DNA from: a virus | Virus record (IMG/VR): IMGVR_UViG_3300032562_000027 | Location: 1-58,239 of that record | Direction: 5' to 3' (one strand) | DNA: 58,239 bases | Part shown: piece after piece, positions 5,928-53,424 of the stretch | How positions within the stretch are numbered: the first letter of the stretch is position 1 | How the letters are laid out: each line of letters starts with the position of its first letter | The notes under the pieces: model-generated | Told to the model about the DNA's origin: nothing | Seen by the model: only the letters and a program-made list of their open reading frames with translations | Database searches by the model: none | Translations under genes and position numbers: made by a program

Positions 5928-5937
5928 TTAGTCTCCC

Positions 5938-8502: not shown

Positions 8503-10478
8503 TACTTAGCCATACCCCACTTATCCACTATCTTCACATCCGCGATAAGCGGAATAGTCTTGAGCATCTTTACGCCTTCCATTGCTTCACGAATGGCCTC
8601 GGCAGTCTGTTCAGCTAAGTGCTCTGGGCAGGAAGTCACAAGTTCATCGTGCACTGTGAGGAGTATCTTAGCACCTTCTGGAATCATCTTATGAGCACGG
8701 ACCATGGCTATCTTCATGATGTCGGCAGCTGTGCCTTGGATCACAGTATTGAAGGCCTGGCGCTCAGCACCCGCCTTCTTCTCACGGTTACTGGATACGA
8801 TATCTGGAAGGTAGCGACGGCGCCCTGTGGCAGTGACTACATACTTACGCTTACGGGCTACCCCGATGACTCTTAACTTATACAGGCCAACGGCGGAGAA
8901 TTTTTCAGCGAAGTCGTTAAGAAGCTTTTTAGCCTCTGTGTTGGTACAGCCAATACTGCGGGCGATCTTGTCAGGACCTACGCCGTAGGCCATGGATAAG
9001 ACTAGGGTCTTACCAGCAGCACGGTTAACGCCCATGGTAGCCGCTACAGTCATGTAGATATCCTCTTTATCTAGGTATGACTTAACCATGATTGGGTCAT
9101 GAGAGAAGTCAGCAATGATACGAGGTTCAATCTGAGAGTAATCGGCGACTACTAGCTTTTGCCCCACTGGTGGGATAAAGAGATTACGAATCGCCTTACC
9201 GTGAGCAGTAGCAGGACTAGGGACGTTCTGTAGGTTTGGATTACGGCTGGAGAAACGACCAGTCTCCGCACCGTTCTGCACAAAGTCGCAATGAATACGG
9301 CCATTGATTAACAGGCTGTCACGGTACTCGGTCTTAGACTTACCGCCAGTGGTCTTGGTTACGTCCCCACCTAGGTATGGAATCACATAAGTAGTAAGCA
9401 ACTTGTTAAGATCTGCGTACTCTACGAGCAATTTACAAAGCTCGTCCTTCTCCTTGTTCTCAGCCAGTGCTTCTGAGGAGGTGGAGTAGTCTGTGTAAAG
9501 TAGTTCCTTACCCTCATCGCTCTTTTCTTGGCCCTTTGTAGTGAGTACCTTGGTCTTAAGACCACGACCGCCCTCAATCTTAGGCTTGTATAAAAGCTCT
9601 TGACGTTCTGGAATAGAGTTGATGTTGAACTGACGACCAGCTTGCTTGTAGATAGAAGCACGCTTGATCTCTAGTTCAGCTTCTAGTGTGATCTGAAGCT
9701 TTGTAAGGCTGTCCATATCAATCGGAGCACCAGTAAGCTTCATATCGCAAAGAACTGCCAGTACATCCATCTCTAGGTTCATTACCTTCTCGACGCCTGA
9801 CTCTTCTAGCTTAGGGATTAAAGCTTTCCATAGCAAGAAGGTGTACTTAGCATCCAAAGCAGCGTACTTATATGTCTCTAGGAATGAGTGGGCTTCAATC
9901 TCTTTACCGACGCCCTTGACCATCTCGTAGCCGATCTCACGCTTCAAGCAATCAGCAAGTCCGCACTTACCTTTATTCTGTGTGTTGTACAGGAACGAGG
10001 CAATCATAGTGTCAAAGTAAGGGCCTACAGGCACACGCTTACCTAGGTACTTAGCAACTGAAGTAAGGTCGAAGGCTAGGTTATGCCCGACCTTAAGAAT
10101 CTTATCGTTAAACATTAAAGGCTCTAGCGCCTTGAATACCTCTGCTGGGAACAGTTGTTCTGGAGCAGGTGAGAATAGTTTTGTTGCTCGCTTATCACTG
10201 CGAGAGTAATCGCTTTCACGAGGAGCATGTCCAGCGTCTACACGCTTTTGGCCCTGACCAGTTAACGGGCGGTCTAAGCCTATAAACTCTCCATTAGGAT
10301 GACCCATAGGAATAACATCTACACGGCCATATGTGGCAAAGCTAATCCACACTACATCGTTTACTGGAGTATCGCCTCGGCGATCTCCCATTGTTTCCAC
10401 ATCGTAAGCAAAAGCGTCTTGTGTTAGATAGTAAGCAACCATCTCATCTAGTTCTTCTTTAGTAAGAATTAACCCCAT
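8502..10478 (-). CDS. polA: DNA polymerase I (family A) with 3'-5' exonuclease domain
   Basis: A 658-residue replicative polymerase. The proofreading domain shows Asp 26/Glu 28, Asp 137 in GHNLAFD and Tyr 205/Asp 209. The polymerase domain shows motif A DYSQIEPR (446-453), motif B R486-K490-Y498, the TGRRRYLP segment, and motif C VHDE (609-612). There is no 5'-3' exonuclease domain. The residue equivalent to E. coli Phe 762 is Leu 494, and motif A has Pro where Leu is usual. Leu at 762 is reported for many environmental virus polymerases and is linked to slower, more accurate synthesis. An AAGGGG ribosome site precedes the ATG, directly after the terminator at 10498-10535. Confidence 0.96.
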   Translation of the reverse strand: MGLILTKEELDEMVAYYLTQDAFAYDVETMGDRRGDTPVNDVVWISFATYGRVDVIPMGHPNGEFIGLDRPLTGQGQKRVDAGHAPRESDYSRSDKRATKLFSPAPEQLFPAEVFKALEPLMFNDKILKVGHNLAFDLTSVAKYLGKRVPVGPYFDTMIASFLYNTQNKGKCGLADCLKREIGYEMVKGVGKEIEAHSFLETYKYAALDAKYTFLLWKALIPKLEESGVEKVMNLEMDVLAVLCDMKLTGAPIDMDSLTKLQITLEAELEIKRASIYKQAGRQFNINSIPERQELLYKPKIEGGRGLKTKVLTTKGQEKSDEGKELLYTDYSTSSEALAENKEKDELCKLLVEYADLNKLLTTYVIPYLGGDVTKTTGGKSKTEYRDSLLINGRIHCDFVQNGAETGRFSSRNPNLQNVPSPATAHGKAIRNLFIPPVGQKLVVADYSQIEPRIIADFSHDPIMVKSYLDKEDIYMTVAATMGVNRAAGKTLVLSMAYGVGPDKIARSIGCTNTEAKKLLNDFAEKFSAVGLYKLRVIGVARKRKYVVTATGRRRYLPDIVSSNREKKAGAERQAFNTVIQGTAADIMKIAMVRAHKMIPEGAKILLTVHDELVTSCPEHLAEQTAEAIREAMEGVKMLKTIPLIADVKIVDKWGMAK

Positions 10479-31539: not shown

Positions 31540-32184
31540 TTAGTAAGCGGCTGGAGCCACTCCACTCTTTCCTGTGTATGGTGCTCCTGTGCTATCAACG
31601 AACTCAACTGACAAGCCTTCGTGGACAAGGGTGATACCCTCAAACAAGATATTGTTGTCTGTACCGTTTAGATCGTTGTATGACAAGGTGCTGATCCAAG
31701 CGTTGTGGACGCGGAAGAGAACAAGAGGTGTGTTTGATCCTGCTGCGCCAGAAGCTGAGTTCGGTGCACTTGTTGTTGATGGGTGATCGTTTACATAGAT
31801 GTTAAGGTCTAAACGGAAGTCTGAAGAACCTAGTGCGATTCCATCGCCAGCTGCTGCTGCAAATAGGGCACGCATCCATGTGATAGCTTGATCTTGACCA
31901 TAGACCATACCGCGGCTGAGCACGATAGGGTTGAATGTTGTCATTCCAGGGATCTGGTGAACAGTAGTGTTGTATCCACCTTCACGGTAGGCAATAGCCT
32001 GTGTGTTGATGGTTAGGCCAGATACGCTGGTGAATCCACCAGAGAAGCCTGTTGTTGCTGCTGTTGACGCAGGGTTAAAGTAGGTACCACCGTTTGAAGG
32101 AGGCAAGAACTCAACCTGGAATCGGAAATTACGTAGCGGATCAGTCGCAACCGAACCCCAACGTGAAACGTCATTAGTTGGCAT
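31540..32184 (-). CDS. Tail tube protein (gp19-like)
   Basis: A 214-residue tube protein. It has the gp19-type start (RNFRFQVEFLPPSNGG), the GLTINTQAIAYREGGYN loop, the IPGMTTFNPIVLSRGM strands and the closing FEGITLVHEGLSVEF. It forms stacked hexamers inside the sheath. It follows the sheath gene by 14 bases with a ribosome site between. Confidence 0.93.
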   Translation of the reverse strand: MPTNDVSRWGSVATDPLRNFRFQVEFLPPSNGGTYFNPASTAATTGFSGGFTSVSGLTINTQAIAYREGGYNTTVHQIPGMTTFNPIVLSRGMVYGQDQAITWMRALFAAAAGDGIALGSSDFRLDLNIYVNDHPSTTSAPNSASGAAGSNTPLVLFRVHNAWISTLSYNDLNGTDNNILFEGITLVHEGLSVEFVDSTGAPYTGKSGVAPAAY

Positions 32185-32198
32185 GTTTATTTATCTCC

Positions 32199-33728
32199 TT
32201 ATGCTGTGGTTACTGTTGTGCCGCCGTCGTATTGTGAAATACGAATTACGACGAACTCTGCTGGACGTTCTAGGGCAACACCCACATCAATGTGAAGCTC
32301 ACCATTGTTGATGGTTACTGATGTGTTGTTTGTGCTATCGCAGACAGCGTAGAAAGCTTGAGCTGGTGTTGAACCGCTCAAACCACCTTGACGCCAGTAG
32401 TCTGTGAGGAAGTTACCTACAGTTGCTGATAGTTGACGCCATAGACGTTGATCGTTTGGCTCAAAGATTGCAAACTGTGTAAGGTTTGTAAGCGCCTTTT
32501 CAATGTATTGAAGAGAACGACGGACGGGCACGTACATTGTTGAGTACCCTGGTTGTAGGGTACGAGCGCCCATGATTACGATGCCTGAGCCTGGAACGAA
32601 ACGAATTGCGTTAACAGGGGCAGCAGCGCTGTTCATTGAAGCCAAGTTAGTGTTGGTCAAAGCTGCAACTGATACAGCTCCACCAATACGTGTCTTGATA
32701 CCAGCTGGAGCCTTGAATGGCCCAGTTACGTGGTCTGTTACAAGGTACTGAGCTACAACAGCTCCACCAGGGTTGATCGTGCGCACTACGCCTGGGGCAG
32801 AAGATGTTGGATCAGCAACTGTGATCTGTGGGTAGTACACAGCGCCGTAAGAGGTTGAGGTGTAAGAAGCAGCCAAGGTTAGTTGGTTAGCTACTGTGTC
32901 AGCGATAGGGTCGATGACTACGAACACGTCTCCACGTGTAGCTGCGTATGCCAAGATTGTATTTACGTTTGTAGCATCAGTAATTCCTGGGGCGTTAAGC
33001 ACCAAGGTCTGAGTGATGGTGTCAAAGCTGTTTACAGCTCCAGCAACAGAAGTAGCTGTTTGTCCACCTGTAGCGTCTACACCAGAAGCCAATGGCTGTG
33101 CGGTTTGTGACACAGGGACGTTAGCTGGTGAAGAAGCTGTTGTACCATTTGACAAAGGAAGAGAAACGACTACATACTTTGAGTTGCTGTTAACAAAGTT
33201 AACTACGTAGCGTGGGTCTGTTGATGACATAGATAGGTTAGGCCATGTCTCAACGATTGTTGAGGATGTGCCATCGCCTACGTGAACAACAAGAGTAAAG
33301 GTTGCAGCTGTAGCTGTTGTCTTTACGATGTCTACATAGATCTTGTTGCCCCATGCGCCTGGGTTGGCTGCAGAGATAACGATAGAGATTGCTGAACCAG
33401 CTGTTCCGCCAGTTCCTGAGCTGTCATAGAAAGACTGGGTAGATGTAGCTGTTCCAGTACCTAGTACACGCTGGACTGCACAAGCTCCACCATTGTTGTC
33501 TACTAGGAAAGACTTGACTGCAAGACGTAGGTTGTCTGTAGCATCGCCAACAAATCCTCCGTAGAGGTTAACGAAATCAGACCACTTGGTTACTACTGTA
33601 GGTGTTAGAGGACCCTGGTTGATAGCTCCTAGGAATGCTCCTATAGCGGCTGTCGAGGCTCCAACTGTAGGCGGTACTGCGCTCAAGACTTCTTGAACGT
33701 ATACGCCTGGCTGTTGATAAACTGCCAT
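32199..33728 (-). CDS. Contractile tail sheath protein
   Basis: A 509-residue sheath protein. The N-terminal QQPGVYVQEVLSAVPPTVG and GAFLGAINQGP match phage sheaths, as do the C-terminal ARTLQPGYSTMYVPVRRSLQYIE, then NDQRLWRQLSATVGNFL and a final strand EFVVIRISQ. Middle β-rich domains are Ser/Thr/Ala-rich. The sheath proves a contractile tail. Confidence 0.96.
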   Translation of the reverse strand: MAVYQQPGVYVQEVLSAVPPTVGASTAAIGAFLGAINQGPLTPTVVTKWSDFVNLYGGFVGDATDNLRLAVKSFLVDNNGGACAVQRVLGTGTATSTQSFYDSSGTGGTAGSAISIVISAANPGAWGNKIYVDIVKTTATAATFTLVVHVGDGTSSTIVETWPNLSMSSTDPRYVVNFVNSNSKYVVVSLPLSNGTTASSPANVPVSQTAQPLASGVDATGGQTATSVAGAVNSFDTITQTLVLNAPGITDATNVNTILAYAATRGDVFVVIDPIADTVANQLTLAASYTSTSYGAVYYPQITVADPTSSAPGVVRTINPGGAVVAQYLVTDHVTGPFKAPAGIKTRIGGAVSVAALTNTNLASMNSAAAPVNAIRFVPGSGIVIMGARTLQPGYSTMYVPVRRSLQYIEKALTNLTQFAIFEPNDQRLWRQLSATVGNFLTDYWRQGGLSGSTPAQAFYAVCDSTNNTSVTINNGELHIDVGVALERPAEFVVIRISQYDGGTTVTTA

Positions 33729-36057: not shown

Positions 36058-36175
36058 TCTTACTTACCTTCTCTGGTAGAGACTGAGGGTTAGGAGTGAT
36101 CTTGGCCCACTGCTTGGCCATCTGAGGGTGATGGATAAACATGTAAGCCTCTTGAGCTTTTGACTTAAATGGCAT
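36044..36175 (-). CDS. Small phage protein (MPFKSKAQ type)
   Basis: A 43-residue protein starting MPFKSKAQEAYMFIHHPQMA. Short proteins with this start (MPFKSKAQ plus an HHPxxA helix) recur in phages and prophages. The ATG overlaps the upstream stop codon (TGATG) and its stop lies inside the next gene by 14 bases. Function unknown. Confidence 0.7.
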   Translation of the reverse strand: MPFKSKAQEAYMFIHHPQMAKQWAKITPNPQSLPEKVSKNANK

Positions 36176-36732
36176 CAGCTAAGCTCCTCAAATGTATCTG
36201 GGACAGGGCTGGCATACTGGACAAACTGGGTGTCATTAACCATTTCTTCAGGCATGACCTGAAGGCATTCGACAAATAGAAGGGTATATTGGTTGGCAAT
36301 AATGGCACGAGGCTGGACATTATTAGGGCGGTAAACGCTACCGTTCCAGACAATACGGCTGCGGTCCTGCAGCTCTGGGTTCATAAAGACGTTAGGGTAG
36401 ATGGCCTCAGCGTCATTGGCGTCAATAAGCAGGTGGATAGATTCAGTGTTGTAGAAGCCTCGAACGTCTTCCTGCACGACACCCTGTTTAACAATTGCCT
36501 TGATAACAGGTAGGTCAAATGGGCCGTGCCATAGACGACCGCCGCCGATGGAGCCTACATCGTAGATTGGATCTACAGTAGTACCTGCCGCGTTATAAAC
36601 CCACCACTGAACAACAGTTCCTACCGTCTTGGTAACCTCGGAGTCGATGCCATCAAGCAGTGAACTAGTCTCGTAGGCGATGTCAAAACGACCGCCAGGC
36701 TGGATTCCACGCATCCTTATAGGGTACGGCAT
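36175..36732 (-). CDS. Head/neck protein
   Basis: A protein of 185 residues from ATG 36732 (a GTG at 36747 would add five). It is β-rich (FDIAYETSS, QWWVYNAAG, LLFVECLQVM) with a central EDVRGFYNTESIHLLIDAND. It is the first minus-strand gene after the plus-strand island and heads the unit of basic proteins. By place it may be a head completion or neck protein. The start is 22 bases from the divergent plus-strand start, so the two genes share a very short control region. Confidence 0.65.
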   Translation of the reverse strand: MPYPIRMRGIQPGGRFDIAYETSSLLDGIDSEVTKTVGTVVQWWVYNAAGTTVDPIYDVGSIGGGRLWHGPFDLPVIKAIVKQGVVQEDVRGFYNTESIHLLIDANDAEAIYPNVFMNPELQDRSRIVWNGSVYRPNNVQPRAIIANQYTLLFVECLQVMPEEMVNDTQFVQYASPVPDTFEELS

Positions 36733-36742
36733 TTGAACCTGA

Positions 36743-36748
36743 TACACT
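36743..36748 (+). promoter_or_regulatory. -10-like element for leaderless plus-strand operon
   Basis: TACACT ends 6 bases before the ATG at 36755, the same spacing as the TATAAT of the RHH gene at 12293-12298. There is no ribosome site before the ATG. The island therefore probably starts with a leaderless mRNA from this short divergent region. Confidence 0.45.
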
Positions 36749-36754
36749 GTGCAT

Positions 36755-37753
36755 ATGAATTTGGTGCAACGGGCCGTGGCTCAAGGTGGAAAACTAGCTC
36801 CTCTCTTAATAGAAAAGGGCCTGAAAGCAGGTACTGGACTAATGAACCCCTCGGTCTTTATAGACGACGACGGGGATATTCTGGTCAATCTGCGCCACGT
36901 CAACTACACGCTCTACCACTCTGAGAACGAGCAGCTCTTCCCTAGCCGCTGGGGCCCGCTCTCCTACCTTCATCCTGAAAAGGATCAGCACCTGCGCACC
37001 GAAAACTACGTATGCCGTCTCAACCCAAACTTAGAGATGACTGACTACGCCAAGGTAGAAATGCTTGAACTGCATACTCCAATCTGGGAGTTTGTAGGCT
37101 TAGAGGACGCTCGCATGTATCAGTGGGAGGGCGAGTACTACTTAGTAGGCGTTCGCCGCGACACTACCGCCCATGGCGAAGGCCGCATGGAATACAGCAA
37201 GATTGAGATTGATAAAGCTAACTGGACAGTTAAGGAAGTTCAGCGCACACGCATACCAGCTCCTGGTGAGGACAACTCATACTGTGAGAAGAACTGGTAT
37301 GGCATCTTAGACGCACCGTTCCACTTCATTAAGTGGACATCTCCTACTGAGCTAGTTTTGGCTGATCCTAATGAGCCTAAGGTCGAACAGGTATTTGTAA
37401 AGCAAGCCCCTACTCCACCATCCGACCAACGGGGTGGTTCACAGGTAGTCAAGTGGGGCAACATGTACATTGCGATTACCCATGAGGTCAACCTTTTCAA
37501 GAATTACCTTAACCAGAAGGACGGTATCTATCGCCACCGCCTAGTCCTTTGGGATAACGAGCTTAATCTAATCGGTTACTCCAACACCTTCTCGTTCCTA
37601 GATGCTCGAATTGAGTTTGCTGTAGGCGCCGCCATCCAGGGAGAAGATCTGCTTATCTCGTTTGGATTCCAAGATAACGCAGCATTCGTACTTCGTACCC
37701 CAAAGCTTGTGGTGGAAGACTTGATCATGGAGGCTCTTAACTATGCAAATTGA
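36755..37753 (+). CDS. GH130-like five-bladed propeller glycan protein
   Basis: A 332-residue protein matching the glycosidase-like five-bladed β-propeller seen in GH130/COG2152 and related phage carbohydrate proteins. Around residues 110-130 it has a FVGLEDARMYQWEGEYYLVGVR blade (GLEDAR is the classic stretch), then GGSQVVKWGNMYIAITHEV and YRHRLVLWD. GH130 members phosphorolyse mannosides; in phages homologues sit with TPR and methyltransferase genes and may bind or build glycans. The catalytic Asp is not certain here. It starts a three-gene plus-strand operon with 4-14 base overlaps, opposite to nearly all other genes. The track start GTG at 36749 is less likely. Confidence 0.78.
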   Translation: MNLVQRAVAQGGKLAPLLIEKGLKAGTGLMNPSVFIDDDGDILVNLRHVNYTLYHSENEQLFPSRWGPLSYLHPEKDQHLRTENYVCRLNPNLEMTDYAKVEMLELHTPIWEFVGLEDARMYQWEGEYYLVGVRRDTTAHGEGRMEYSKIEIDKANWTVKEVQRTRIPAPGEDNSYCEKNWYGILDAPFHFIKWTSPTELVLADPNEPKVEQVFVKQAPTPPSDQRGGSQVVKWGNMYIAITHEVNLFKNYLNQKDGIYRHRLVLWDNELNLIGYSNTFSFLDARIEFAVGAAIQGEDLLISFGFQDNAAFVLRTPKLVVEDLIMEALNYAN

Positions 37754-38321
37754 AGAACTAGTAGTTGAACTTTCTAAGGATCCGTTTAATCCTGAGCTTA
37801 ACTTTGCCTGCGCACAAGAGTACGACCGCCTAGGGCAGACCGCCTCGGCTGTTTCTTTCTATCTTCGCACGGCAGAGTATGGATATGAGACGCACCGTAA
37901 GCTGGCGTACCAATCTTTATTGCGTACATCTATTTGCTTTGAAAACCAAAACGATCGTAAATATACAGTTAGTAACTGTATCTTGCAGGCAGTTGAGCTT
38001 TGCCCAAATGAGGTAGAGGGTTATTTCTTGATGTCTAGGTTCCATGAGCGCAACGGCGAATGGCAAGAGGCGTATACTTGGTCTGGTATCGGGCTTGACC
38101 TTGTTGACGGTATGGAAGACAGAAGCTACTCAAATCCTTTTTTAGACTATGAGGGCGATTACTCACTAATGTTTGAGCGTGCTGTATGTGGTTGGTGGGT
38201 AGGTCGCGTAGAAGAGGCTAAAGACCTCTTTCACACCATGCTACTTATGAACATTAAAGATAACTACCGTTCAGCAATTGTCGACAATTTGAAAAGGATA
38301 GATCCTAATGCTGGTCTTTGA
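37743..38321 (+). CDS. TPR-containing glycosylation-associated protein
   Basis: A 192-residue helical protein with TPR-like repeats (ELNFACAQEYDRLGQTASAV, VEGYFLMSRFHERNGEWQEA, AWWVGRVEEAKDLF-like helix). The same repeat type forms the C-terminal part of phage glycosyltransferases that carry TPRs. It overlaps both partners in the operon by 11-14 bases, so it probably works with the propeller and the methyltransferase as a complex. Confidence 0.75.
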   Translation: MQIEELVVELSKDPFNPELNFACAQEYDRLGQTASAVSFYLRTAEYGYETHRKLAYQSLLRTSICFENQNDRKYTVSNCILQAVELCPNEVEGYFLMSRFHERNGEWQEAYTWSGIGLDLVDGMEDRSYSNPFLDYEGDYSLMFERAVCGWWVGRVEEAKDLFHTMLLMNIKDNYRSAIVDNLKRIDPNAGL

Positions 38322-38979
38322 TATTGGAGCTAACCGCGGAGATGCCACCCTAGTGGCCCTAAGTATGGGAGCTAGAGTTATAGCTGTAGAAGCCGCCCCT
38401 CGCGTTTATAAGCAGTTGGTCAGTAACTTTATCTACAACTCTAATGTTGTGCCTCTTAAATATGCAGTTTCTAATGTGGATAACGAGACTGTTACCTTCT
38501 ATGAAGCTGATGAGGATGGCCTGTCTACACTTAATAAGGACTGGCTTACTGATGAGACTATGCCGTATGCAGGTAAGCCTTATAGAGAGGTAGTTGTTAA
38601 TACCACTACCATAGATTCTTTAGTAAGAGCTTACGGTACACCTGAGCTCATTAAGGTTGACGTAGAAGGTGCTGAGTGGCTGGTTTTTAAGGGCATGGCT
38701 CAGAAGTATGGGATGCTTACCTTTGAGTGGACTGACGCTACCCTTACAGAGCATGAGCTACAACTGGACTACCTTTACAACCTTGGATACCGAGAGTACG
38801 CACCTCAATTCATTGTTAACCATTTAGATCAACCTGAAGAGTGGTTCCCACTACAAGAAGACAACACGTTTGCCCTAGTAGAGTGGGTATCCAAGCATGA
38901 AGAAGCCTGGACCTCAGGCGGCTGGAAAGAAGCTAATCTAAGACCGACAGCTGATGTCGGAATGATTTGGCTACGTTAG
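38308..38979 (+). CDS. FkbM-family SAM-dependent methyltransferase
   Basis: A 223-residue methyltransferase: motif I VFDIGANRGDAT (3-14), VIAVEAAP (24-31), a middle NTTTIDSLV segment and IKVDVEGAEWLVFKGM (115-130), the FkbM signature. FkbM enzymes O-methylate sugars. It is the last gene of the plus-strand island and its TAG overlaps the minus-strand TAA of the long fibre by two bases (TTAG), so the two operons converge with no terminator between. Methylation of a phage or host glycan is inferred. Confidence 0.9.
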   Translation: MLVFDIGANRGDATLVALSMGARVIAVEAAPRVYKQLVSNFIYNSNVVPLKYAVSNVDNETVTFYEADEDGLSTLNKDWLTDETMPYAGKPYREVVVNTTTIDSLVRAYGTPELIKVDVEGAEWLVFKGMAQKYGMLTFEWTDATLTEHELQLDYLYNLGYREYAPQFIVNHLDQPEEWFPLQEDNTFALVEWVSKHEEAWTSGGWKEANLRPTADVGMIWLR

Positions 38980-41900
38980 AGCCCACCAAAGCACAGGGTT
39001 AGAGCTGTAAAGTCCTGAGATAGCGAACCGTCACCCTTAACAATCTGATTAGCTGTTCCACCAGATGTCTTAAATGCTGTAGAGGTGATGGTGCTGGATG
39101 CTGTGATAGCTCCAGAGGTTGCAATCGTAAGCGCATCAGCTGTGTTGGTCTGGCCGTTTACAACGAAGTGTATAGCGTTGTTTGTCCAGGTACCAATGGT
39201 GAAATCACCATTGTTAGCCTCAAGGAAGTTAACCCCCTGTAAGGTAAACGAGTTAGCTGGATATCCAAGACCGTTAGAGGATGCGTAGGTACTGCTGTTA
39301 GTACCCATCTCCATATAAGAGCCGCTAGAAGCATATTGATCGTTAGCTGTAACAAACGCTGCATATGCAGTATTGGCACTGTTTGAGTTCTGAAGAATTA
39401 CGTTTGCGTACTGGGTATCAGCGCCTACGAAGGTAGCTAGCTGTCCAGTAGACGTCGTTGTATTGCCACCAACAGCAAGAGCTCCTGCGTTAGTAGTTGT
39501 ATTAGCTGTGTACTGAAGCGCTAGGGATGTACCTGTTGCAGCACCAATAACTGGAGTAGTAAGAGTTGGACTTGTAGATAGTACAGTTGTATATCCAGTA
39601 CCTGTAACAGCCTGTAGCGATAAAGTTCCAGAGGTGTACTGAAGGCCATTGCCAACAGTAACAATTCCTGAACCGCCCTGAGTACCTTGTAGACCCTGGG
39701 TACCTGTTGCTCCTTGTGAACCTGTTAGGCCTTGAGTTCCTGTGGCACCTTGAGCACCCACGGTTCCCTGAGCACCAGTTGTACCTTGAGAACCATTTGA
39801 GCCAACAAATCCAGCAGTTCCCTGAGAACCAGTAGTTCCCTGTGAACCGATAAGTCCTTGTAGACCAGTTAAGCCTTGAATACCTGTGAAGCCTTGGACA
39901 CCAATTGTTCCTTGAACTCCTTGAGTTCCCTGAAAACCTGTTGCACCCTGGGTTCCAATAGTTCCTTGAGATCCTGTAAGTCCTTGAGCTCCAGTAGTTC
40001 CTTGGATGCCATTAGTACCTTGGTTGCCCTGGATACCTTGGGTTCCTTGGACACCCTGAACTCCTTGAGTTCCTTGGTTTCCTTGAATACCAGTAGCTCC
40101 CTGGTTTCCTTGAACGCCTTGCGTTCCTTGAGCCCCAGTAGCGCCTTGAGAACCAGTGATTCCCTGAGCCCCAGTAAGTCCCTGAGAACCAGTTATTCCT
40201 TGGATACCTTGTGTGCCTTGGTTTCCTTGGATTCCTTGGATTCCTTGAGTACCTTGTGCACCTGTGACCCCAGTGGTGCCCTGTGTTCCCGTTGTTCCTT
40301 GAGAACCAACTGCTCCCTGAGAACCCGTGATGCCTTGTGTACCAGTAATGCCTTGAGCACCAGTGGCTCCTGTCGGTCCAGCCTGTGTATATGTAACCTG
40401 CATCGCATTGACTACAAGGCTAGGTGCAGATGGTCGGGTTGGTGATGTTCCAGCCGAAGTCGGTACCAACTGCATGTACTGATTGTTTGAGTACCAGTAG
40501 AACTGGATGTAATCTCCAGCAGCCAAAGTCAAAGTGTTTTCTACGTTTGCAGATACTTGCTCGTTGACTCCAGCAGTGGTGAATGTGTATGCAGCACCTG
40601 TTACTGGTGAGCCATTCTTGGTGTACCAAACTGTTACTTGGTAATTGCTTCCACCGCCGCTAGTAATGAACTGGCCAATAAAGTTAATAAGGTAAGTGCC
40701 AGCGTAAGTAAAGGTAAGTTGATTGCCAGACACAACAGATACGCCATTGCTTACGCCAGTGCTGTTGATAGCAACAACGTTAGCCGCTGAAGGGTAGCCT
40801 GCATTAGACTGAGTTGTGGTGTCAAAGAATGAACCATAGTAAGCAATTGTTCCACCAGCGCCAGTAGGGCCTGTAGGGCCTTGTAAACCTACACCAGAGG
40901 TCTTAGTCCAGTTGATTGCGTCTGTGCCAAGTTTAATAGATTCATCAGAATTTGAACCCACGTCGTACTGAATCCACGTAGTAATCGCGTTTACGGTTCC
41001 AGCAAGAACGGTAACGTAGTCACCAGGCTCAACATCTTCTGCTGACACTGAGTTGCTGTAATCTGATGAACGGGTAAGAACCCAGTACGCAGAACCAGAT
41101 CCAACAGTGGTAACTGTGTAGATACCATTTTGAATTGCGTTTGCTTGATCCTTAACGAGGATTCTTTGTCCTGAGGTAACAGTTACGCTGTCAACTACTA
41201 AAGCGCCAAATGTAGTGGCAGTAAGGTTAGCACCAATACCTGTTCCGCCGTTAAGGTCGGCAGTTCCGTTTGTATACGTTGGAGAGTTAGGAAGCACTGC
41301 GGAGGCAGTTGCTAGGTTTACAGATTGGTGAGCGTTAGCGGTACTTGTAGCACCCATAAGGCCTTGAATACCTTGAGTGCCCTGAACACCTTGCAGTCCT
41401 TGTAGGCCTTGTGTACCCTGTACACCTTGGATACCAGTAGTACCTGTAATTCCCTGTGCGCCTGTTGTGCCAGTAGTTCCTTGAGAACCTGTAATTCCCT
41501 GTGTGCCCTGTGTTCCTTGAGTGCCCTGAATTCCCTGGGTTCCTTGAACACCTTGAGTGCCCTGAACACCTTGAATACCTTGCGTTCCTTGAGTACCAGT
41601 TGCTCCTTGAATACCAACGGTTCCTTGGTTTCCCTGTAAGCCTTGAATACCTAGAAGACCTTGAACACCTTGAATTCCCTGGGTTCCCTGAGCTCCTGTT
41701 TGACCAGTAGTTCCCTGCGAACCTGTGATGCCTTGAATTCCTTGTAGACCTTGGTTTCCTTGGATACCTTGAGTACCTTGAGTACCTTGAGTACCTTGAG
41801 TACCTTGAGGCCCCTGAACTCCCTGGAGTCCTTGAATACCCTGAGTGCCTTGGGTGCCTTGGGTGCCTTGGGTGCCTTGGGTGCCTTGATCTCCTGTAGT

Positions 41901-42854
41901 GCCTTGAGCACCTGTTACTCCTTGGATACCCTGGATGCCTTGAGTACCCTGGGCCCCCTGAACTCCTTGAGTTCCTTGGGTTCCAGTTTGTCCTGTTGCA
42001 CCTTGTGTACCAGTTGCTCCTTGAGCTCCAGTGATGCCTTGAGTACCCTGGGTACCCTGCACACCTTGGGTTCCCTGAACTCCTTGTGTACCTTGCGCCC
42101 CTTGTGTACCTAGAACACCCTGGGTTCCTTGGGCACCAGTTAATCCTTGAAGGCCAACAAATCCTTGAATACCTAAAAGACCTTGAACTCCCTGAACACC
42201 CTGGGTTCCTTGAATGCCTTGGGTGCCTTGTAGACCCTGAGGTCCTTGAACACCTTGAACTCCTTGAGTTCCTTGCGTACCATTTGTTCCTTGTGGTCCT
42301 TGGATAATTCCAACGTTAACCCACTGTGTACCTTCCCATACCCAAAGGTTAGGGTCAATGATATAGCCGTCTCCGTTATTACCTGTTGGATGTGCGGCTA
42401 CTAAAGCTGCGTAAGTATTATATGAACCAAGAATTGTTACAGAGGTACCTGCAGTACCTTGAACCGAAATTCCTTGGATGCCCTGAGTACCTTGGACCCC
42501 TTGAAGTCCCTGCAAGCCTTGAGTACCTTGAACGCCTTGTGTTCCCTGAGCACCCTGAATACCAGTAGTTCCCTGGTTTCCTTGAATACCCTGAGTGCCT
42601 TGCACGCCCTGTGTGCCTTGAGCACCTTCTGGACCAATATCGCCTTGAGAACCTGTGTAACCCATGGTTCCTTGAACGCCTTGAACGCCTTGAATACCTG
42701 AAGAGTAAGAAAGAGATGTCCAAGAAGTAGAGCCGTTACCGACTTTAAACTTGCCTGTGTCTGTCTCTAAGCCAAGTTCACCGCTAGCTAGAGTTGGGTT
42801 TGCAGACGTCCAGTTGGCAGCTGTGTCGCGGCGAAGTTGAATTTGAATAGCCAT
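38976..42854 (-). CDS. Long collagen-like tail fibre protein
   Basis: A 1292-residue fibre. Residues 1-50 form the usual phage fibre N-terminus (IQLRRDTAANWTSANPTLAS). Collagen-like Gly-X-Y tracts lie at about 53-130, 184-501 and 825-1062, some 210 triplets in all. Most triplets are GTQ, GIQ, GVQ, GAQ or GLQ with little proline. Between them lie a domain with QRILVKDQANAIQNGIYTV (about 530-650) and a C1q/TNF-like β-sandwich (about 670-822). The C-terminal 230 residues are β-rich and end without a classic chaperone. It would trimerise as a receptor-binding fibre. Its last codon overlaps the FkbM stop. Confidence 0.9.
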   Translation of the reverse strand: MAIQIQLRRDTAANWTSANPTLASGELGLETDTGKFKVGNGSTSWTSLSYSSGIQGVQGVQGTMGYTGSQGDIGPEGAQGTQGVQGTQGIQGNQGTTGIQGAQGTQGVQGTQGLQGLQGVQGTQGIQGISVQGTAGTSVTILGSYNTYAALVAAHPTGNNGDGYIIDPNLWVWEGTQWVNVGIIQGPQGTNGTQGTQGVQGVQGPQGLQGTQGIQGTQGVQGVQGLLGIQGFVGLQGLTGAQGTQGVLGTQGAQGTQGVQGTQGVQGTQGTQGITGAQGATGTQGATGQTGTQGTQGVQGAQGTQGIQGIQGVTGAQGTTGDQGTQGTQGTQGTQGTQGIQGLQGVQGPQGTQGTQGTQGTQGIQGNQGLQGIQGITGSQGTTGQTGAQGTQGIQGVQGLLGIQGLQGNQGTVGIQGATGTQGTQGIQGVQGTQGVQGTQGIQGTQGTQGTQGITGSQGTTGTTGAQGITGTTGIQGVQGTQGLQGLQGVQGTQGIQGLMGATSTANAHQSVNLATASAVLPNSPTYTNGTADLNGGTGIGANLTATTFGALVVDSVTVTSGQRILVKDQANAIQNGIYTVTTVGSGSAYWVLTRSSDYSNSVSAEDVEPGDYVTVLAGTVNAITTWIQYDVGSNSDESIKLGTDAINWTKTSGVGLQGPTGPTGAGGTIAYYGSFFDTTTQSNAGYPSAANVVAINSTGVSNGVSVVSGNQLTFTYAGTYLINFIGQFITSGGGSNYQVTVWYTKNGSPVTGAAYTFTTAGVNEQVSANVENTLTLAAGDYIQFYWYSNNQYMQLVPTSAGTSPTRPSAPSLVVNAMQVTYTQAGPTGATGAQGITGTQGITGSQGAVGSQGTTGTQGTTGVTGAQGTQGIQGIQGNQGTQGIQGITGSQGLTGAQGITGSQGATGAQGTQGVQGNQGATGIQGNQGTQGVQGVQGTQGIQGNQGTNGIQGTTGAQGLTGSQGTIGTQGATGFQGTQGVQGTIGVQGFTGIQGLTGLQGLIGSQGTTGSQGTAGFVGSNGSQGTTGAQGTVGAQGATGTQGLTGSQGATGTQGLQGTQGGSGIVTVGNGLQYTSGTLSLQAVTGTGYTTVLSTSPTLTTPVIGAATGTSLALQYTANTTTNAGALAVGGNTTTSTGQLATFVGADTQYANVILQNSNSANTAYAAFVTANDQYASSGSYMEMGTNSSTYASSNGLGYPANSFTLQGVNFLEANNGDFTIGTWTNNAIHFVVNGQTNTADALTIATSGAITASSTITSTAFKTSGGTANQIVKGDGSLSQDFTALTLCFGGL
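41771..41809 (-). repeat. Identical 9-bp tandem repeats in fibre gene
   Basis: GAGTACCTT repeats four times with a partial fifth, encoding repeated Gly-Thr-Gln. Slippage would change the fibre in whole triplets without a frameshift. Confidence 0.85.
41845..41889 (-). repeat. Identical 9-bp tandem repeats in fibre gene
   Basis: GTGCCTTGG repeats four times followed by a one-mismatch fifth copy, again encoding Gly-Thr-Gln. Third positions are the same in every copy, so the array has recently expanded or been homogenised. Confidence 0.85.
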
Positions 42855-42869
42855 TAGGTTATTTTATCC

Positions 42870-43100
42870 TCATCCTGTCGCTGTGCCAGCATTAATGGAA
42901 GTAATGCCGCCGTAGTTAGAAGTAGCACTTCCCCCATCAAGATCAGCCAAAGTAGTGCTTGATTGTGCAGTCCAGTTAGTTCCATCAAATGTCTTAATAG
43001 CATTTAATGTCGTGCTGTAGTAAGCGTCCCCAGCTTCATGACCAACAGGGTCACTAGCTAACGCTAGCAACCCTATAGGTACAACAAACTTACGGGACAT
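42870..43100 (-). CDS. Short fibre-associated protein
   Basis: A 76-residue protein starting MSRKFVVPIGLLALASDP with a GDAYYSTTLNAIKTFDGTNW segment, the same fold as the fibre-attachment N-terminus of the 420-residue protein upstream (MARKFLTPINLSQL ... IYFDTTLGYLRTWNGTAW). It looks like a truncated copy of that attachment domain with a short Gly/Ser-rich end. It may cap or spread fibres. Confidence 0.75.
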   Translation of the reverse strand: MSRKFVVPIGLLALASDPVGHEAGDAYYSTTLNAIKTFDGTNWTAQSSTTLADLDGGSATSNYGGITSINAGTATG

Positions 43101-43114
43101 TAAGCGCTCCTAGA

Positions 43115-44377
43115 TTAAGCGTGTACTACTACGCGATAAGCGTTTGAAGATGGTGCAACAGCAAACCCAATTGTTACGGTGTTAGATGTTGAGTAAGCCA
43201 CATCAGTAACAACTTCGGCATTTGTTGATGCGTCGTAAACGATTGCAATCGCGCTCTGTGTGCCTAGGTTGTGGGTAACTGTGTAGCTAGTGCTTGAACC
43301 ATCACCGATAAGAGTTGTGTATTTTTCAACAACCTTGCTGGTGTCTACTACAAGTTGTGAGCCAGAAACTGTAAGGCCAGAACCGTAGTTAGCTGAGATT
43401 GCGCCACCAGAGATGGTGATTCCGTTACCAGCTGTGTACTCTCCAGCAGCAGAGAACTGTGTCCAGGTAGAAGCTCCACCTGAGTAAGCGGTGATAACCC
43501 AACCTTGTGCGGCGTTGGTACCTTCTTCTACGAATACGAACGAGCCTTCTTTAAGGTTCGTGTCTTCTGCGTTAGTAGACGCAACAAGTAAGCTAGATGT
43601 AGAGTTATAGATATAGATACCGTTTTGAGTAGCGGTAGTCTGGTTCTTAACCAACACGCGGTCGTTGTTAGCAAGGGTTACGCCGTTAAGAGTTGTAAGA
43701 GTAGAGGCTAAGTTAAGGTTAGTGTTGGTATCTGTGCGAACAGACTCAAGTACTGAAAGTCCCTCTGCTGTTGCATCAACATACGCCTTAGTAGCTATAA
43801 CGGAGGTGTTGACAGAAAGAACACCAGAGCCGTTAATATTAAGGCTGCTATCAGTTGAAAGGATTCCAGCGTTAGTTCCCTGGATACCTTGTAGGCCTTG
43901 AACACCCTGTGTACCTTGAGTACCCTGGGTTCCTTGTACGCCTTGAATACCTTGAGTACCTTGCGCTCCAGTAATTCCCTGGATGCCTTGAGTTCCTTGT
44001 GAACCTGTGATTCCTTGGATGCCCTGGGTACCTTGTGTACCTTGAGAACCAGTTAGGCCTTGGATGCCTTGCGTGCCTTGGGTACCTTGTGTTCCCTGAG
44101 TGCCTTGGGTACCTTGAACTCCTTGGATACCTTGCGTACCCTGAATACCTTGTGTGCCCTGCACACCTTGGATGCCCTGTGTTCCTTGAGCACCGTTAGC
44201 ACCAATGCTGGCGTTAAGCCATGCTGTGCCATTCCATGTTCTGAGGTAACCAAGTGTTGTATCAAAATAGATTTGACCTGTTACTGGGCTTGATGGAGCA
44301 GTTGCCAGGTTTTGAATAGCGGCATTCTGCAGCTCTAGTTGAGAGAGGTTGATAGGTGTTAAAAACTTACGTGCCAT
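43115..44377 (-). CDS. Second collagen-like fibre protein
   Basis: A 420-residue protein. Residues 1-58 form an attachment domain with YFDTTLGYLRTWNGTAW; residues 59-168 form about 36 Gly-X-Y triplets; the rest contains the same GVTLANNDRVLVKNQTTATQ domain as the long fibre (where it reads SGQRILVKDQANAIQ). A C-terminal β-rich domain has TVTHNLGTQSAIAIVYDA. The shared domains suggest the two fibres arose by duplication and form one fibre complex. Confidence 0.88.
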   Translation of the reverse strand: MARKFLTPINLSQLELQNAAIQNLATAPSSPVTGQIYFDTTLGYLRTWNGTAWLNASIGANGAQGTQGIQGVQGTQGIQGTQGIQGVQGTQGTQGTQGTQGTQGIQGLTGSQGTQGTQGIQGITGSQGTQGIQGITGAQGTQGIQGVQGTQGTQGTQGVQGLQGIQGTNAGILSTDSSLNINGSGVLSVNTSVIATKAYVDATAEGLSVLESVRTDTNTNLNLASTLTTLNGVTLANNDRVLVKNQTTATQNGIYIYNSTSSLLVASTNAEDTNLKEGSFVFVEEGTNAAQGWVITAYSGGASTWTQFSAAGEYTAGNGITISGGAISANYGSGLTVSGSQLVVDTSKVVEKYTTLIGDGSSTSYTVTHNLGTQSAIAIVYDASTNAEVVTDVAYSTSNTVTIGFAVAPSSNAYRVVVHA

Positions 44378-46999: not shown

Positions 47000-48073
47000 C
47001 TAATTGGTCTCCGCAATTACTACGCTTTGGTCTGTGATTAGGCCAAGTCCGAAGATTGAGTACCAAGCAAGCGCATGCTCACGACCAAAGTCCAAGATAC
47101 CGCCATCGCGGAGCTCGACTGGAAGAGAGATAGCGTGACCGAAAGCGTTGTCTCCGATGAAGATAGCGCTGTAGCGGTCAGATGAACCGTTACCTGTGAG
47201 GGTGTTAGGAGTTGTGTATCCTCCGCCAGGTACAACTACTGGGTTAGCGACTGTTGAGTCAGCTGTGTAGTTAGCACCAGCACCACCAGGAACGTGGAGA
47301 ACCTGTGTTGTTTCGATGAAGACTACATCGTACAAACGTCCGATTTCACCGAGCATGAAGTTGCCTGGAGCAGCGTACTTTGTTACTTCGATGAACTCTG
47401 GGTTGTCGCGAAGTGTACGTGATTGGTGAGGGTGAACGAAGCAGACGTAGGTCTCGCCCAAACGAGGGATGTTCTTTGTAGCCAAGGTCTCTACTGTGTC
47501 CTTGACAACGTGTGGTGTCAAGTATGAAGAACCTGTCATTGAAGCACGAGATGTAGCGAATGTGCCGTATCCGTACCAGTTGTTGACAGCAGATGAGACT
47601 GATGAGCGATCTTCACCGTAAAGTGTTGAAGAAGCTGCATAGAGAGTATCGCGTGAAAGGCCATCAAGGTAGAGAGCCATGTTGCGACCGAGAAGACGTG
47701 AAGCAGAAGCCATTACGTCATCGAATGAAGCGTTAAGAAGAAGTTCTGAAACAGCAAGAGCATAACCATGCTCTGTTACTGTGATTGAGAACTGTTGAGC
47801 TGTAAGAGCGTTTGTCTGCATACGTACACCTTCGACCAATGGTGAAGCAAAGCCGAGGTTGTTGTAACGCATGAAGTTGATCTGGAGACCAGGTGCAACA
47901 CCTAGTTCAGTCTTCTTAACAGCGAATTGTTCAAAACGAAGGATTGGCATAGCCTGGAATAGGATTTCCTTAGACCAGATCTGTTGGATTGCCTGTGTGA
48001 GCTGGGTGTTTGTGCCTGAGTAGGCTGTTGGTGACGCGGCTAGATTGCCGGTACCTGTGATACCTGAAGCCAT
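47000..48073 (-). CDS. Major capsid protein, N4-gp56 family
   Basis: A 357-residue HK97-fold capsid protein of the N4-gp56 type: IQQIWSKEILFQAMPILRFE near residue 28, then LGVAPGLQINFMRYNNLG, the middle SELLLNASFDDVMASASRLL helix and the ETYVCFVHPHQSRTLRDNPE segment. It follows the scaffold gene. A terminator-like hairpin ends it, in keeping with a separate high-level transcript. Confidence 0.92.
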   Translation of the reverse strand: MASGITGTGNLAASPTAYSGTNTQLTQAIQQIWSKEILFQAMPILRFEQFAVKKTELGVAPGLQINFMRYNNLGFASPLVEGVRMQTNALTAQQFSITVTEHGYALAVSELLLNASFDDVMASASRLLGRNMALYLDGLSRDTLYAASSTLYGEDRSSVSSAVNNWYGYGTFATSRASMTGSSYLTPHVVKDTVETLATKNIPRLGETYVCFVHPHQSRTLRDNPEFIEVTKYAAPGNFMLGEIGRLYDVVFIETTQVLHVPGGAGANYTADSTVANPVVVPGGGYTTPNTLTGNGSSDRYSAIFIGDNAFGHAISLPVELRDGGILDFGREHALAWYSIFGLGLITDQSVVIAETN

Positions 48074-49027: not shown

Positions 49028-50539
49028 TTACTTCTCGTAGTCTTGCGGCGTCCTTCTCTGTGGGATCTGGGTGCCGTAAGCTTCTGTAACTAGGCGGTTA
49101 CGTAGAGCCGCCTCACCTGCTGTGTTCAGCATGGTTGCCTCATCAAGGATCGGAGTTGGTCCGCCTTGAGGGACTGCAGGTTCTCCTTCTGGACCAGTAG
49201 GTAGAGGCTCAGCCATACCACCTTCTGCAGGGAGCATTCCTGTAAGGGAAGCAATTTCATTGTTGATTTCGGTCTGTAGGAGCTTAAGAGCACCATCAGC
49301 CTTAGCGTCATCCATGAGTTCTTGACGGATCTCGGTGAGCTTCTCAGCAGGGAACTCTTCGCCCAATAGGCGCAAAGCGCCTTCCTTTGACTCCAAGCCA
49401 AGGGACATCTTGGTCTGAATCTCGTTCAGAACGATGAGCTTGTCTAGTGGTAGCGGAGGTGGGAAGTGAACATAAGAGCGGAAAGTAATAGGGTCATTAG
49501 GATCTAGCTGTGAAAGCTGACCAGGCTTTAGAGGCGTTGTGCTTGAGTTAGGATCCCAGGTAAATACCTCAGGCTCCTTAACAGCAAGGTTAAGAAGGAT
49601 AAGCTCATTGACGCGCTCTAGGCCGTGAGCGTATTGAATAATCTTTTGGTGGTAACGAGCCATAAGAGGCTGGAACATAATGCTAAGAGCAACACCTGAT
49701 GTGTTAGATACTGGCATAGCCTGACCAAGAGCAGTCTCAGGTACGCCGACCATTTCGTGCATGGCCTTCTTCATTAGCTCAAGGAACTCAAGACCAAGCT
49801 TTAGGCCAGAGCCGCCGCCTTCAAGGTTTTCTACACGAGCATCCTTAGGCAAGCCACCCCATACCTTGTTGGCGCCTTTTTCTAGCTGCGCCGCCTTAGC
49901 GCCGATAATAACTGTAACTGGCGCTGCGTGGTAGTTAACGATGTCCGCAATGTCTGTCGCCGTTTCGTTATACGTACGGTTAATGCTGATAATCTGATCA
50001 CAGTCTGAGAGACCCCAAGGAGAACCAGAAATACGAATGTTAGGAATATGTATAACGGGTATAGTGCCCAGTGGGTTTGGGCGCGAGTCAATGAGCTCGT
50101 CATTGATGTATTCCTCAATCGTGTCGTCTGTCAAGATTTCAGTGTAAGTGAATACTTGACGTGTGCCTTCAAGTGATGTGCCCCAGAAGCGGTACTTCAA
50201 CTTGAAACGGATGAGGCGCTCGCGATCATGTGGGTGGAACTCTGGGAAAGAGAATGATGCGTTAAGTGGCAGGATACGTACACGGCCTGGGTGAGCGCGG
50301 CCTGCGGTATCCACGAATGCTTCTTCGTAAGCTACCTTGATAAAGCAGTCTCCAGATACTCCGCCTTGTTGGCCGATTTCCCAAAGAACTGTAGCTTTGT
50401 TGTTATCTACTTCCCATACACGCTCTAGAAGGTCTGGGACAATAGCTTCTGTTTCCTTAGGTGAGCGGAAGTTAACGCCCTTGCCAAAGGTGAAGTTAAT
50501 GATGAAATCTGAGAAGGCACGAAAATAGTTGAGTGCCAT
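49028..50539 (-). CDS. Portal protein (main part)
   Basis: A 503-residue portal protein. The core shows VKEAYEEAFVDT-type wing strands, PGRVRILPLNASFSFPEFHP, YKFWGTSLEGTRQVFTY-like clip region, the SNTSGVALSIMFQPLMARYH stem helix and a Pro-rich, disordered C-terminus. The ATG at 50539 is very likely not the true N-terminus: the same frame is open upstream as LGHHWSYRRQTGEAQ, and the matching N-terminal part is encoded by 50589-50744 in another frame. If internal initiation is used, the only ribosome-like site is a weak AGGCG nine bases upstream. Confidence 0.92.
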   Translation of the reverse strand: MALNYFRAFSDFIINFTFGKGVNFRSPKETEAIVPDLLERVWEVDNNKATVLWEIGQQGGVSGDCFIKVAYEEAFVDTAGRAHPGRVRILPLNASFSFPEFHPHDRERLIRFKLKYRFWGTSLEGTRQVFTYTEILTDDTIEEYINDELIDSRPNPLGTIPVIHIPNIRISGSPWGLSDCDQIISINRTYNETATDIADIVNYHAAPVTVIIGAKAAQLEKGANKVWGGLPKDARVENLEGGGSGLKLGLEFLELMKKAMHEMVGVPETALGQAMPVSNTSGVALSIMFQPLMARYHQKIIQYAHGLERVNELILLNLAVKEPEVFTWDPNSSTTPLKPGQLSQLDPNDPITFRSYVHFPPPLPLDKLIVLNEIQTKMSLGLESKEGALRLLGEEFPAEKLTEIRQELMDDAKADGALKLLQTEINNEIASLTGMLPAEGGMAEPLPTGPEGEPAVPQGGPTPILDEATMLNTAGEAALRNRLVTEAYGTQIPQRRTPQDYEK

Positions 50540-51852: not shown

Positions 51853-53424
51853 TTATCTACTAAAAAATAGATTCGAGCTTACCTCTACTGAAGGCATAGC
51901 TAATTCCATAGTTAGAGAGCAGGCAATAGCCAAAGAGTCAGCAAAGTCGTCATGGGCGTGAGCCTCATCTGGGGCAGCGGCAGAGAAGTTAGGGCCATTG
52001 AACTTAACCTCTAGGTCTGTCATCTGCTGGTAAAAGCGCTTCCAGGTACGTAGACGACGAGTCTTTGCGTGAGAAGGCCAACCTACTAAGCGTCTATCTA
52101 TAAGCTGCTTTAGGTGCTTCCAACGCTTGGATTGCTCCTGCTGGGAGCTGCCTACTGGATGTACCTCAGCTCTAGGAAGTAGGATCTTTAGACGCTGGGC
52201 TACGGCATCGCCTACACCGTTCGCATCTACACCTACTGCTAGGACGTCGTAGTTAGAAAGGAAGTTAACGATCTGGAAGTACTGGTCTTCCCAGTCATCG
52301 CCTTGGATCTCAAGCCAGTTAAGAATACGGTGGTCGTAGAGGCCGAACTCATCAGGGCGATCCCAGTCAACCCAAACAACTGTGACTACTGTGGAGTCCA
52401 TCTTACGGGCTGGGTCAATGCCCACTACAACAGGAGAACGGTGCCAGGCTTTAACTACCTCTTGAGAGGTGTCGCCAAGCTCGTCCATAACTGTAGAGGT
52501 AACGAACATGCCTCGTTCTAGGAGCCACTTGCCGCAGTACGACATCTGGAACTCGTCAGAGTCTTCGCCGATACGAAGCATCTCACGCTTAATGAACTTA
52601 GCGTAGTTAGGGTTGCACTTAGCAACATCTCGCCAGTCCCACTCGAAGTGATTCTGTCTAGCGCGTGAGCCTGTCTGGCGTCTCTTATTAAGCTGGATAG
52701 AACGGTAGAAGTTATTCTTAGACGTGGTAGGCGTACCAGTCTTAACCATGGTTCCTGAGTAGTAAGCCAACATAGGAGAGATAGATTTAGATACCACGAA
52801 ATCATCGGCTTCTTGGCACTCGTCAATAACAATGAGATGGAACGACTTAGATTCAATCTTGGCTCGTGGGTTAGCGGTCATCATTGTGAGAGTAGAGCCA
52901 GAGTTCTTAAGCTTGATCTGACGTGTGACACCTGCCACTTTACTGATGCTGTCGTCAATCTCTGTGTCAGCAAGGATCTCATTAGCATGCTCAGATGTTA
53001 GGCGGTTTACGGCACGGCCGAATAGGGTTTCAACCTGACCCTCAACGGGGGCAAACATACCGATCCAGATACCATCTTTATACTTGCCGAGAAGGTCTGG
53101 ATACATCTTGCCTAGGCGAGGCATAAGAACCATAAGGGTAACAACGGTATTAGCGATGGTCTCTGACTTACCAGACTGACGGGCCGCTAGGGCTGTTATC
53201 TCTTCGCCGTCGTTAATAATAACTGACTCAATAATACGTCTAGCCAGAGGGACTTGGTAAGGGTGAAGGTCATGGCCTACGAATGCCGCCATGAATTGCA
53301 TAACTCGATCAATTAGCTTATTGACAAACTCCTTAGAGAGTTCGTCTAGCTCTTCCTCGAGCTCTTCCTCAACGGGAATCTCATCGTCCTCGAGAAACTC
53401 TTCTTCATCTATAAATTCGCTCAT
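51853..53424 (-). CDS. terL: Terminase large subunit
   Basis: A 523-residue packaging motor. Walker A is ARQSGKS (81-87), Walker B is LIVIDECQEA near 200, and the coupling motif is TGTPTT near 230. The C-terminal nuclease shows VVGIDPARKMD, VGVDANGVGD and AHDDFADSLAIA with the expected acidic residues. The N-terminus is extremely acidic (residues 2-30). No separate small terminase subunit was recognised; one of the small zinc or helical genes just upstream could serve. Confidence 0.94.
   Translation of the reverse strand: MSEFIDEEEFLEDDEIPVEEELEEELDELSKEFVNKLIDRVMQFMAAFVGHDLHPYQVPLARRIIESVIINDGEEITALAARQSGKSETIANTVVTLMVLMPRLGKMYPDLLGKYKDGIWIGMFAPVEGQVETLFGRAVNRLTSEHANEILADTEIDDSISKVAGVTRQIKLKNSGSTLTMMTANPRAKIESKSFHLIVIDECQEADDFVVSKSISPMLAYYSGTMVKTGTPTTSKNNFYRSIQLNKRRQTGSRARQNHFEWDWRDVAKCNPNYAKFIKREMLRIGEDSDEFQMSYCGKWLLERGMFVTSTVMDELGDTSQEVVKAWHRSPVVVGIDPARKMDSTVVTVVWVDWDRPDEFGLYDHRILNWLEIQGDDWEDQYFQIVNFLSNYDVLAVGVDANGVGDAVAQRLKILLPRAEVHPVGSSQQEQSKRWKHLKQLIDRRLVGWPSHAKTRRLRTWKRFYQQMTDLEVKFNGPNFSAAAPDEAHAHDDFADSLAIACSLTMELAMPSVEVSSNLFFSR

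Follow-up and report, generated by a model that had tools for sequence, protein, structure and literature searches.

A putative tail-fibre modification cassette with a GH130/GT108-like propeller beside proline-poor collagen genes in a freshwater myovirus

Collagen-like proteins that carry sugars have been described in Bacillus, where glycosylation of the exosporium protein BclA is thought to improve hydration (PMC8968730), and in Mimivirus, whose collagen is hydroxylated and glycosylated by virus-encoded enzymes (PMC8968730). Among phages, virion glycosylation on the capsid and tail tube is reported for mycobacteriophages (Freeman 2023, as cited in a passage of PMC12619734). Here we describe a freshwater myovirus contig from IMG/VR (record IMGVR_UViG_3300032562_000027; its whole length of 58,239 bases is the window) in which three plus-strand genes, for a β-propeller, a TPR protein and an FkbM-family S-adenosylmethionine (SAM) methyltransferase, converge on the gene of a collagen-like tail fibre. 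We put at about one half the probability that these three genes are a phage-encoded modification (glycosylation) cassette for the phage's own tail fibres. Our literature search found no paper linking FkbM proteins with collagen-like phage fibres, or GH130 enzymes with phages.

The fibre gene (38976-42854, minus strand) encodes 1292 residues with 217 G-X-Y triplets, and its long G-X-Y runs and family matches (PF01391, 1e-94; phrog_5073 tail fibre, 7e-144) identify it as a collagen-like tail fibre. Gln occurs in 70% of the triplets, mostly at the Y position (150), Thr in 47% (70 at X, 43 at Y), Pro in 3% and Lys in none; an earlier note on this DNA had spoken of Thr in most triplets, which the count corrects. 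BclA likewise has a collagen-like repeat with many Thr, but in the window phage Thr lies mainly at X with Gln at Y, the enzymes are different and the glycosylation is a prediction. A phage virion protein with glycans is also what the mycobacteriophages offer; here the glycan is predicted, and the candidate enzymes are a GH130/GT108-fold pair beside tail-fibre genes. The modification of Mimivirus collagen is Lys-based. Virus-encoded modification of a viral collagen is what we propose as well, yet the phage collagens have no or almost no Lys: in those within 1.8 kb of a propeller gene, Lys occurs in at most 2% of triplets, Thr in 19-73% and Pro, a single case of 20% aside, in at most 8%. Lys-based collagen glycosylation, considered as a candidate, was rejected on these Lys counts.

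Fold of the propeller and composition of the cassette

The lead gene of the cassette (36755-37753, plus strand) is open from an in-frame GTG as well (36749-37753), with ATG 36755 as the likelier start since relatives begin MNLVQ. Its product scores 14.2 bits against the Pfam GH130 family PF04041, under the curated cut-off of 26 (its best relative scores 21.4 bits), and a PDB sequence search with it gave no significant GH130 enzyme, so that a comparison of folds was needed. For an AlphaFold model built with 26 related phage proteins (pLDDT 84.5), Foldseek returned GH130 phosphorylases as the top PDB matches (Listeria 5b0p, E 8e-9), together with the Leishmania GT108 enzymes 6q50 and 6q4z (E about 1e-6); TM scores to GH130/GT108 structures are about 0.5-0.56. 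The β-propeller fold, five-bladed in GH130, is recognized through these Foldseek matches. Giant-virus proteins annotated as fucosyltransferase, WcaK-like pyruvyl transferase and LicD are among the best matches to viral models. The motif GxEDxR (E119 D120 R122, numbered from GTG 36749) is invariant in 22 diverse members, as are K181-N182-W183, R228-G229 and H245, and it aligns with GLEDPR of the GH130 enzyme 9fj8 (E 0.41); the Asp of this ED(P)R motif we take to be the catalytic residue in GH130. In its modelled β-propeller, its invariant GxEDxR and its conserved Arg, Lys and His residues the phage protein resembles the GH130 mannoside phosphorylases and the GT108 dual mannosyltransferase-phosphorylases (the Leishmania MTPs), whereas it differs from them in sequence (about 10-15% identity) and in being almost always accompanied by a TPR partner; membership of GT108 itself is marked by a GDP-mannose donor. 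We regard the propeller as GH130/GT108-like by modelled fold and by motif, and the description "GH130-like" in the earlier note holds at the level of the AlphaFold/Foldseek matches, GT108 included, while falling short of the Pfam cut-off.

GH130 and GT108 have fold and mechanism in common, and GH130 comprises both phosphorylases and hydrolases (PMC8950772), so the fold of the propeller cannot separate hydrolase, phosphorylase and transferase. The presence of hydrolases in the family, and of 5a7v among the Foldseek matches, would suit a propeller that degrades glycans or serves as a receptor-binding virion component on host mannosides, its neighbours being unrelated cargo. We consider this very unlikely, given the constant TPR partner and the nucleoside diphosphate (NDP)-sugar gene context; moreover, the propeller matched no phage structural family and, in the window phage, is encoded on the strand opposite to the virion genes.

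The propeller gene is followed by genes for the TPR protein (37743-38321, plus strand; TPR_17, 31.2 bits against a cut-off of 24.4) and the FkbM-family methyltransferase (38308-38979, plus strand; PF05050, 62.5 against 22.7 bits; TIGR01444, 92 against 37.7 bits), whose SAM motif FDIGANRGDA is intact, with D5, G7, A8 and N9 conserved. A viral scan started from the window propeller gave at least 593 relatives, and two more, with a Synechococcus-phage protein and a marine protein as queries, gave further groups; the best 80 loci were kept, the group sizes not being frequencies, and most loci are metagenomic fragments, in which absence is weak evidence. With partner genes sought by hidden Markov model profiles and TPR counted within 5 kb on the same strand, the TPR partner is present in 75/75, 75/78 and 72/73 evaluable loci of the window-like, cyanophage-like and marine groups, respectively, and the FkbM domain in 57/60, 19/71 and 1/58. 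From these counts, the propeller and the TPR protein form the core, with FkbM as one among a number of finishing genes. The cultured Synechococcus phage S-SCSM2R has this core pair. One genome scan for cellular relatives gave only five contigs of metagenome-assembled genomes, three of them short, by an exact-peptide search that would miss distant ones. A 413-kb phage record (L523; G139:C1:204674-207183) has two copies of the propeller gene within 1 kb of each other, one of them much diverged.

The FkbM gene invites a different reading, in which the system modifies the polypeptide itself and FkbM methylates Gln or Asn side chains or the backbone, its target being the Gln of G-X-Q. FkbM-like enzymes acting on ribosomally synthesized and post-translationally modified peptides (RiPPs) provide the precedent: PoyE and AerE N-methylate Asn side chains, stabilizing the polytheonamide helix, and EreM N-methylates the backbone, at most sites only with an oxygenase (PMC11285071). 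Oxygenase-like and radical SAM neighbours occur in some of the phage relatives too, cyanophage relatives adding radical SAM/SPASM and DUF6445 genes, and the collagens at cassette loci are Gln-rich. The RiPP enzymes act on precursor peptides, however, whereas the phage FkbM is coupled to a sugar-enzyme fold, the nearest solved folds of the propeller being sugar enzymes; and FkbM, absent from most cyanophage-like loci and from almost every marine one, cannot define the system. A sequence search found no solved FkbM peptide methyltransferase, and the structure search with FkbM was generic and did not separate sugar from peptide substrates. On balance, peptide methylation is an unlikely role for the cassette.

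Tail-fibre neighbourhoods and the link with proline-poor collagen

In Synechococcus phage DSL-LC02, a collagen-like gene stands immediately ahead of the cassette and a tail fibre immediately behind it, and the cassette is joined by an FkbM + radical SAM/SPASM fusion and a DUF6445 gene. Among loci of at least 14 kb, a collagen gene is present in 23/25 of the window-like and 27/42 of the cyanophage-like group, and in cyanophage-like contigs the two genes are often co-oriented, the collagen gene ending about 20-150 bp ahead of the propeller. In the marine T4-like group, several of the loci whose gene upstream of the cassette was read have a fibre-like protein of about 2900-3050 aa in that place. 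Common to the cassette sites is a tail fibre and not collagen. The earlier note had picked out a real and recurrent unit, which is conserved and stands next to tail-fibre genes, collagen among them, in two or more phage lineages that are unrelated; because related cassettes adjoin tail-fibre genes elsewhere in aquatic phages, the phage probably glycosylates its own fibres.

The remaining neighbours, which follow the core genes immediately or are fused, supply a sugar-nucleotide and post-translational-modification context. Marine phages have a cytidylyltransferase fused to a mannose-6-phosphate-isomerase-like cupin at the cassette, and other relatives have a DegT aminotransferase, GFO/IDH oxidoreductase, hexapeptide transferase and GT2/GT7C, or GT17 with FkbM, GT2 with DUF6445, or radical SAM/SPASM. 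At one locus (L332, 8225-11433) an NDP-sugar set of hexapeptide transferase, oxidoreductase, DegT aminotransferase and GT2 lies directly behind the propeller. In three marine T4-like phages (L344, L355 and L407, at about 5000-9600) radical SAM genes occur close to the propeller/TPR operon, and in L407 a 2-oxoglutarate-Fe(II) oxygenase was confirmed as well.

The NDP-sugar, GT2, GT17 and acetyl- and aminotransferase genes near relatives resemble surface-polysaccharide loci, and a variable third gene is what would be expected for surface glycans; many relatives, moreover, do not adjoin collagen. The cassette might accordingly modify host surface glycans, for receptor masking or superinfection exclusion, and merely be located in the tail module. 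We hold this to be doubtful: it gives no reason for the repeated tail-fibre adjacency in unrelated phages or for the association with proline-poor collagen, and no membrane anchor or flippase gene lies within the island itself.

To describe that association, collagen genes were deduplicated and classed as proline-poor where Pro occurs in less than 10% of triplets, and loci without the cassette were chosen for comparison by capsid protein or fibre N-terminus. Proline-poor collagens account for 76/79 at cassette loci and 21/44 at loci without it (p = 5e-10), most of these 21 being on contigs whose ends fall within or close to the collagen. In the capsid-protein family the match is without exception (8/8 vs 0/19), the evaluable records comprising eight with proline-poor collagen and the cassette, 16 with proline-rich collagen and no cassette, and three with neither collagen nor cassette. 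Relatives whose capsid protein is about 88-97% identical to that of the window phage (L085, L101, L104, L119-L124 and others) include both proline-poor collagen with the cassette and proline-rich collagen without it. In a sample chosen by DNA pattern alone, with the cassette ignored, the propeller is present in 8/32 records with proline-poor, mostly Gln-rich collagen and in 0/50 with Pro-richer collagen (p = 3e-4), the classes having been assigned by hand from composition and the 0/50 search having had no positive control of its own, the same model having matched in other searches. Since the Pro and Gln class thresholds were set after the first data had been seen, these later pattern scans are the fairer test. 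In the fibre it is the scarcity of Pro, together with abundant Gln, that is informative, rather than abundant Thr. Co-occurrence of the island with Thr-rich G-X-Q fibres, which the earlier note had proposed to check, takes the form of an association with proline-poor collagen, none being found with proline-rich collagen, and Thr-richness does not explain it.

Several observations weigh against a cassette dedicated to such fibres. Collagen is not the sole substrate, since 36/38 marine T4-like loci no shorter than 14 kb are without it, and 24/32 of the Gln-rich proline-poor collagen records, some of them fragmentary, are without the propeller, so such collagen does not need it; lead pair without collagen in related phages, and collagen without lead pair, are in part what the earlier note had named as telling against its idea. 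In the eight propeller-positive pattern records the propeller and the collagen mostly lie far apart. The capsid tree requires only three changes for each trait, which makes the within-family association phylogenetically thin. Thr content does not differ between collagens at loci with and without the cassette (p = 0.49), and was rejected as a discriminating property. Finally, the sequence similarity of the propeller to GH130 stays below the Pfam threshold.

Layout of the locus and its overlapping stop codons

The genes for terminase (51853-53424), portal (49028-50539), major capsid protein (47000-48073), tail sheath (32199-33728) and tail tube (31540-32184) lie on the minus strand of the window, as do the baseplate genes, and the plus-strand cassette separates the fibre genes from the sheath genes. 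That the plus strand carries only these three genes, as the earlier note held, agrees with a listing of open reading frames (ORFs; not a gene caller), in which no other plus-strand ORF is clear of long minus-strand ORFs. The capsid protein is 71-73% identical to those of Streptomyces phages BRock and LuckySocke; in the closest cultured relatives, Streptomyces phages at 73% capsid-protein identity, no propeller was found, and no collagen in the 41 kb read. A small ORF (42870-43100, minus strand), with weak matches to families of no known function, separates the fibre gene from that of a second collagen-like virion protein (43115-44377, minus strand), which has 37 triplets with Gln in 86% and no Pro and is a possible second substrate. 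In this second protein a G-X-Q repeat is fused to a head-decoration-like C-terminus (phrog_2647). A tblastn search with the whole fibre matched only the N-terminus and linker domain in the named phages listed, the repeats probably having been filtered. The minus-strand ORF 36175-36747 and the cassette start stand almost back to back (36747-36755), and no sigma-70-like promoter was found on the plus strand in this interval, 5' of the cassette.

At the other end of the cassette, the FkbM TAG (38977-38979) and the fibre TAA (38976-38978, TTA on the plus strand) have 38977-38978 in common, as had been noted before, and the two ORFs overlap by 4 bp (TTAG, 38976-38979). Among 62 evaluable related islands, the next gene after the cassette is convergent in 40, the neighbour overlaps or is no more than 10 bp away in 32, and the identical 4-bp convergent overlap is found in 18, often against non-collagen ORFs; the abutting convergent gene is a collagen fibre in 17. 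The earlier note had seen in the overlap a means of antisense control between cassette and fibre, for which the recurrence of the arrangement in 18/62 islands could be cited. The same overlap, however, occurs against unrelated downstream ORFs, other islands show gaps or the same orientation, and terminator-like hits near the fibre stop are not above shuffles (9 vs 6.4 +/- 2.6). A weak minus-strand stem-loop (38919-38905) lies just beyond the fibre stop, where the earlier note had seen no terminator. With a generic geometry and terminator and promoter scans at or below chance, we rejected antisense control as a specific feature and find such a regulatory device scarcely credible; the 4-bp overlap is ordinary gene packing.

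Proposed mechanism and its meaning for phage fibres

For the activity of the cassette, its donor, acceptor residue, substrate and purpose, we infer the following. The propeller would be an inverting GH130/GT108-fold sugar enzyme that uses an NDP-sugar or a sugar-1-phosphate and more likely builds than cleaves, transferring sugar onto hydroxyls of the fibre chain (Thr in the window phage); the TPR protein, its constant partner, probably docks or presents the substrate chain, and FkbM, as an add-on, would cap the attached sugar by methylation. The likeliest substrates in the window phage would be the neighbouring proline-poor G-X-Q collagen fibres; Lys being absent and Pro nearly so, Thr hydroxyls would be the most plausible acceptors. 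The earlier proposal that the island glycosylates Thr or methylates sugars is plausible in its class of function, although it was reached partly for the wrong reasons, as Thr does not discriminate, and the glycan is predicted only.

Such a modification would stabilize and hydrate a collagen stalk almost without proline, and glycosylated Thr is mentioned as a collagen stabilizer in a passage of PMC3368898 that cites Bann 2000. The pattern suggests, without proof, that the modification replaces the role of proline in ordinary collagen. More tentatively, and at clearly less than even odds, we propose a widespread, hitherto undescribed module in which propeller and TPR adaptor glycosylate tail fibres, so that near-Pro-free Gln/Thr stalks are stabilized by sugar, and to which exchangeable finishing enzymes (FkbM, radical SAM, dioxygenase, NDP-sugar supply) can be added.

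Collagen-like fibres occur commonly in phages and must keep their fold without animal-type prolyl hydroxylation, a puzzle that a cassette tracking proline-poor collagen would make testable in the laboratory. If the proposal is true, it would add a virus-encoded protein-glycosylation enzyme family of GH130/GT108 fold, and tail fibres, the host-recognition part of the virion, would be counted among the virion proteins that are glycosylated, which would bear on the understanding of phage adsorption and on the design of recombinant collagen.

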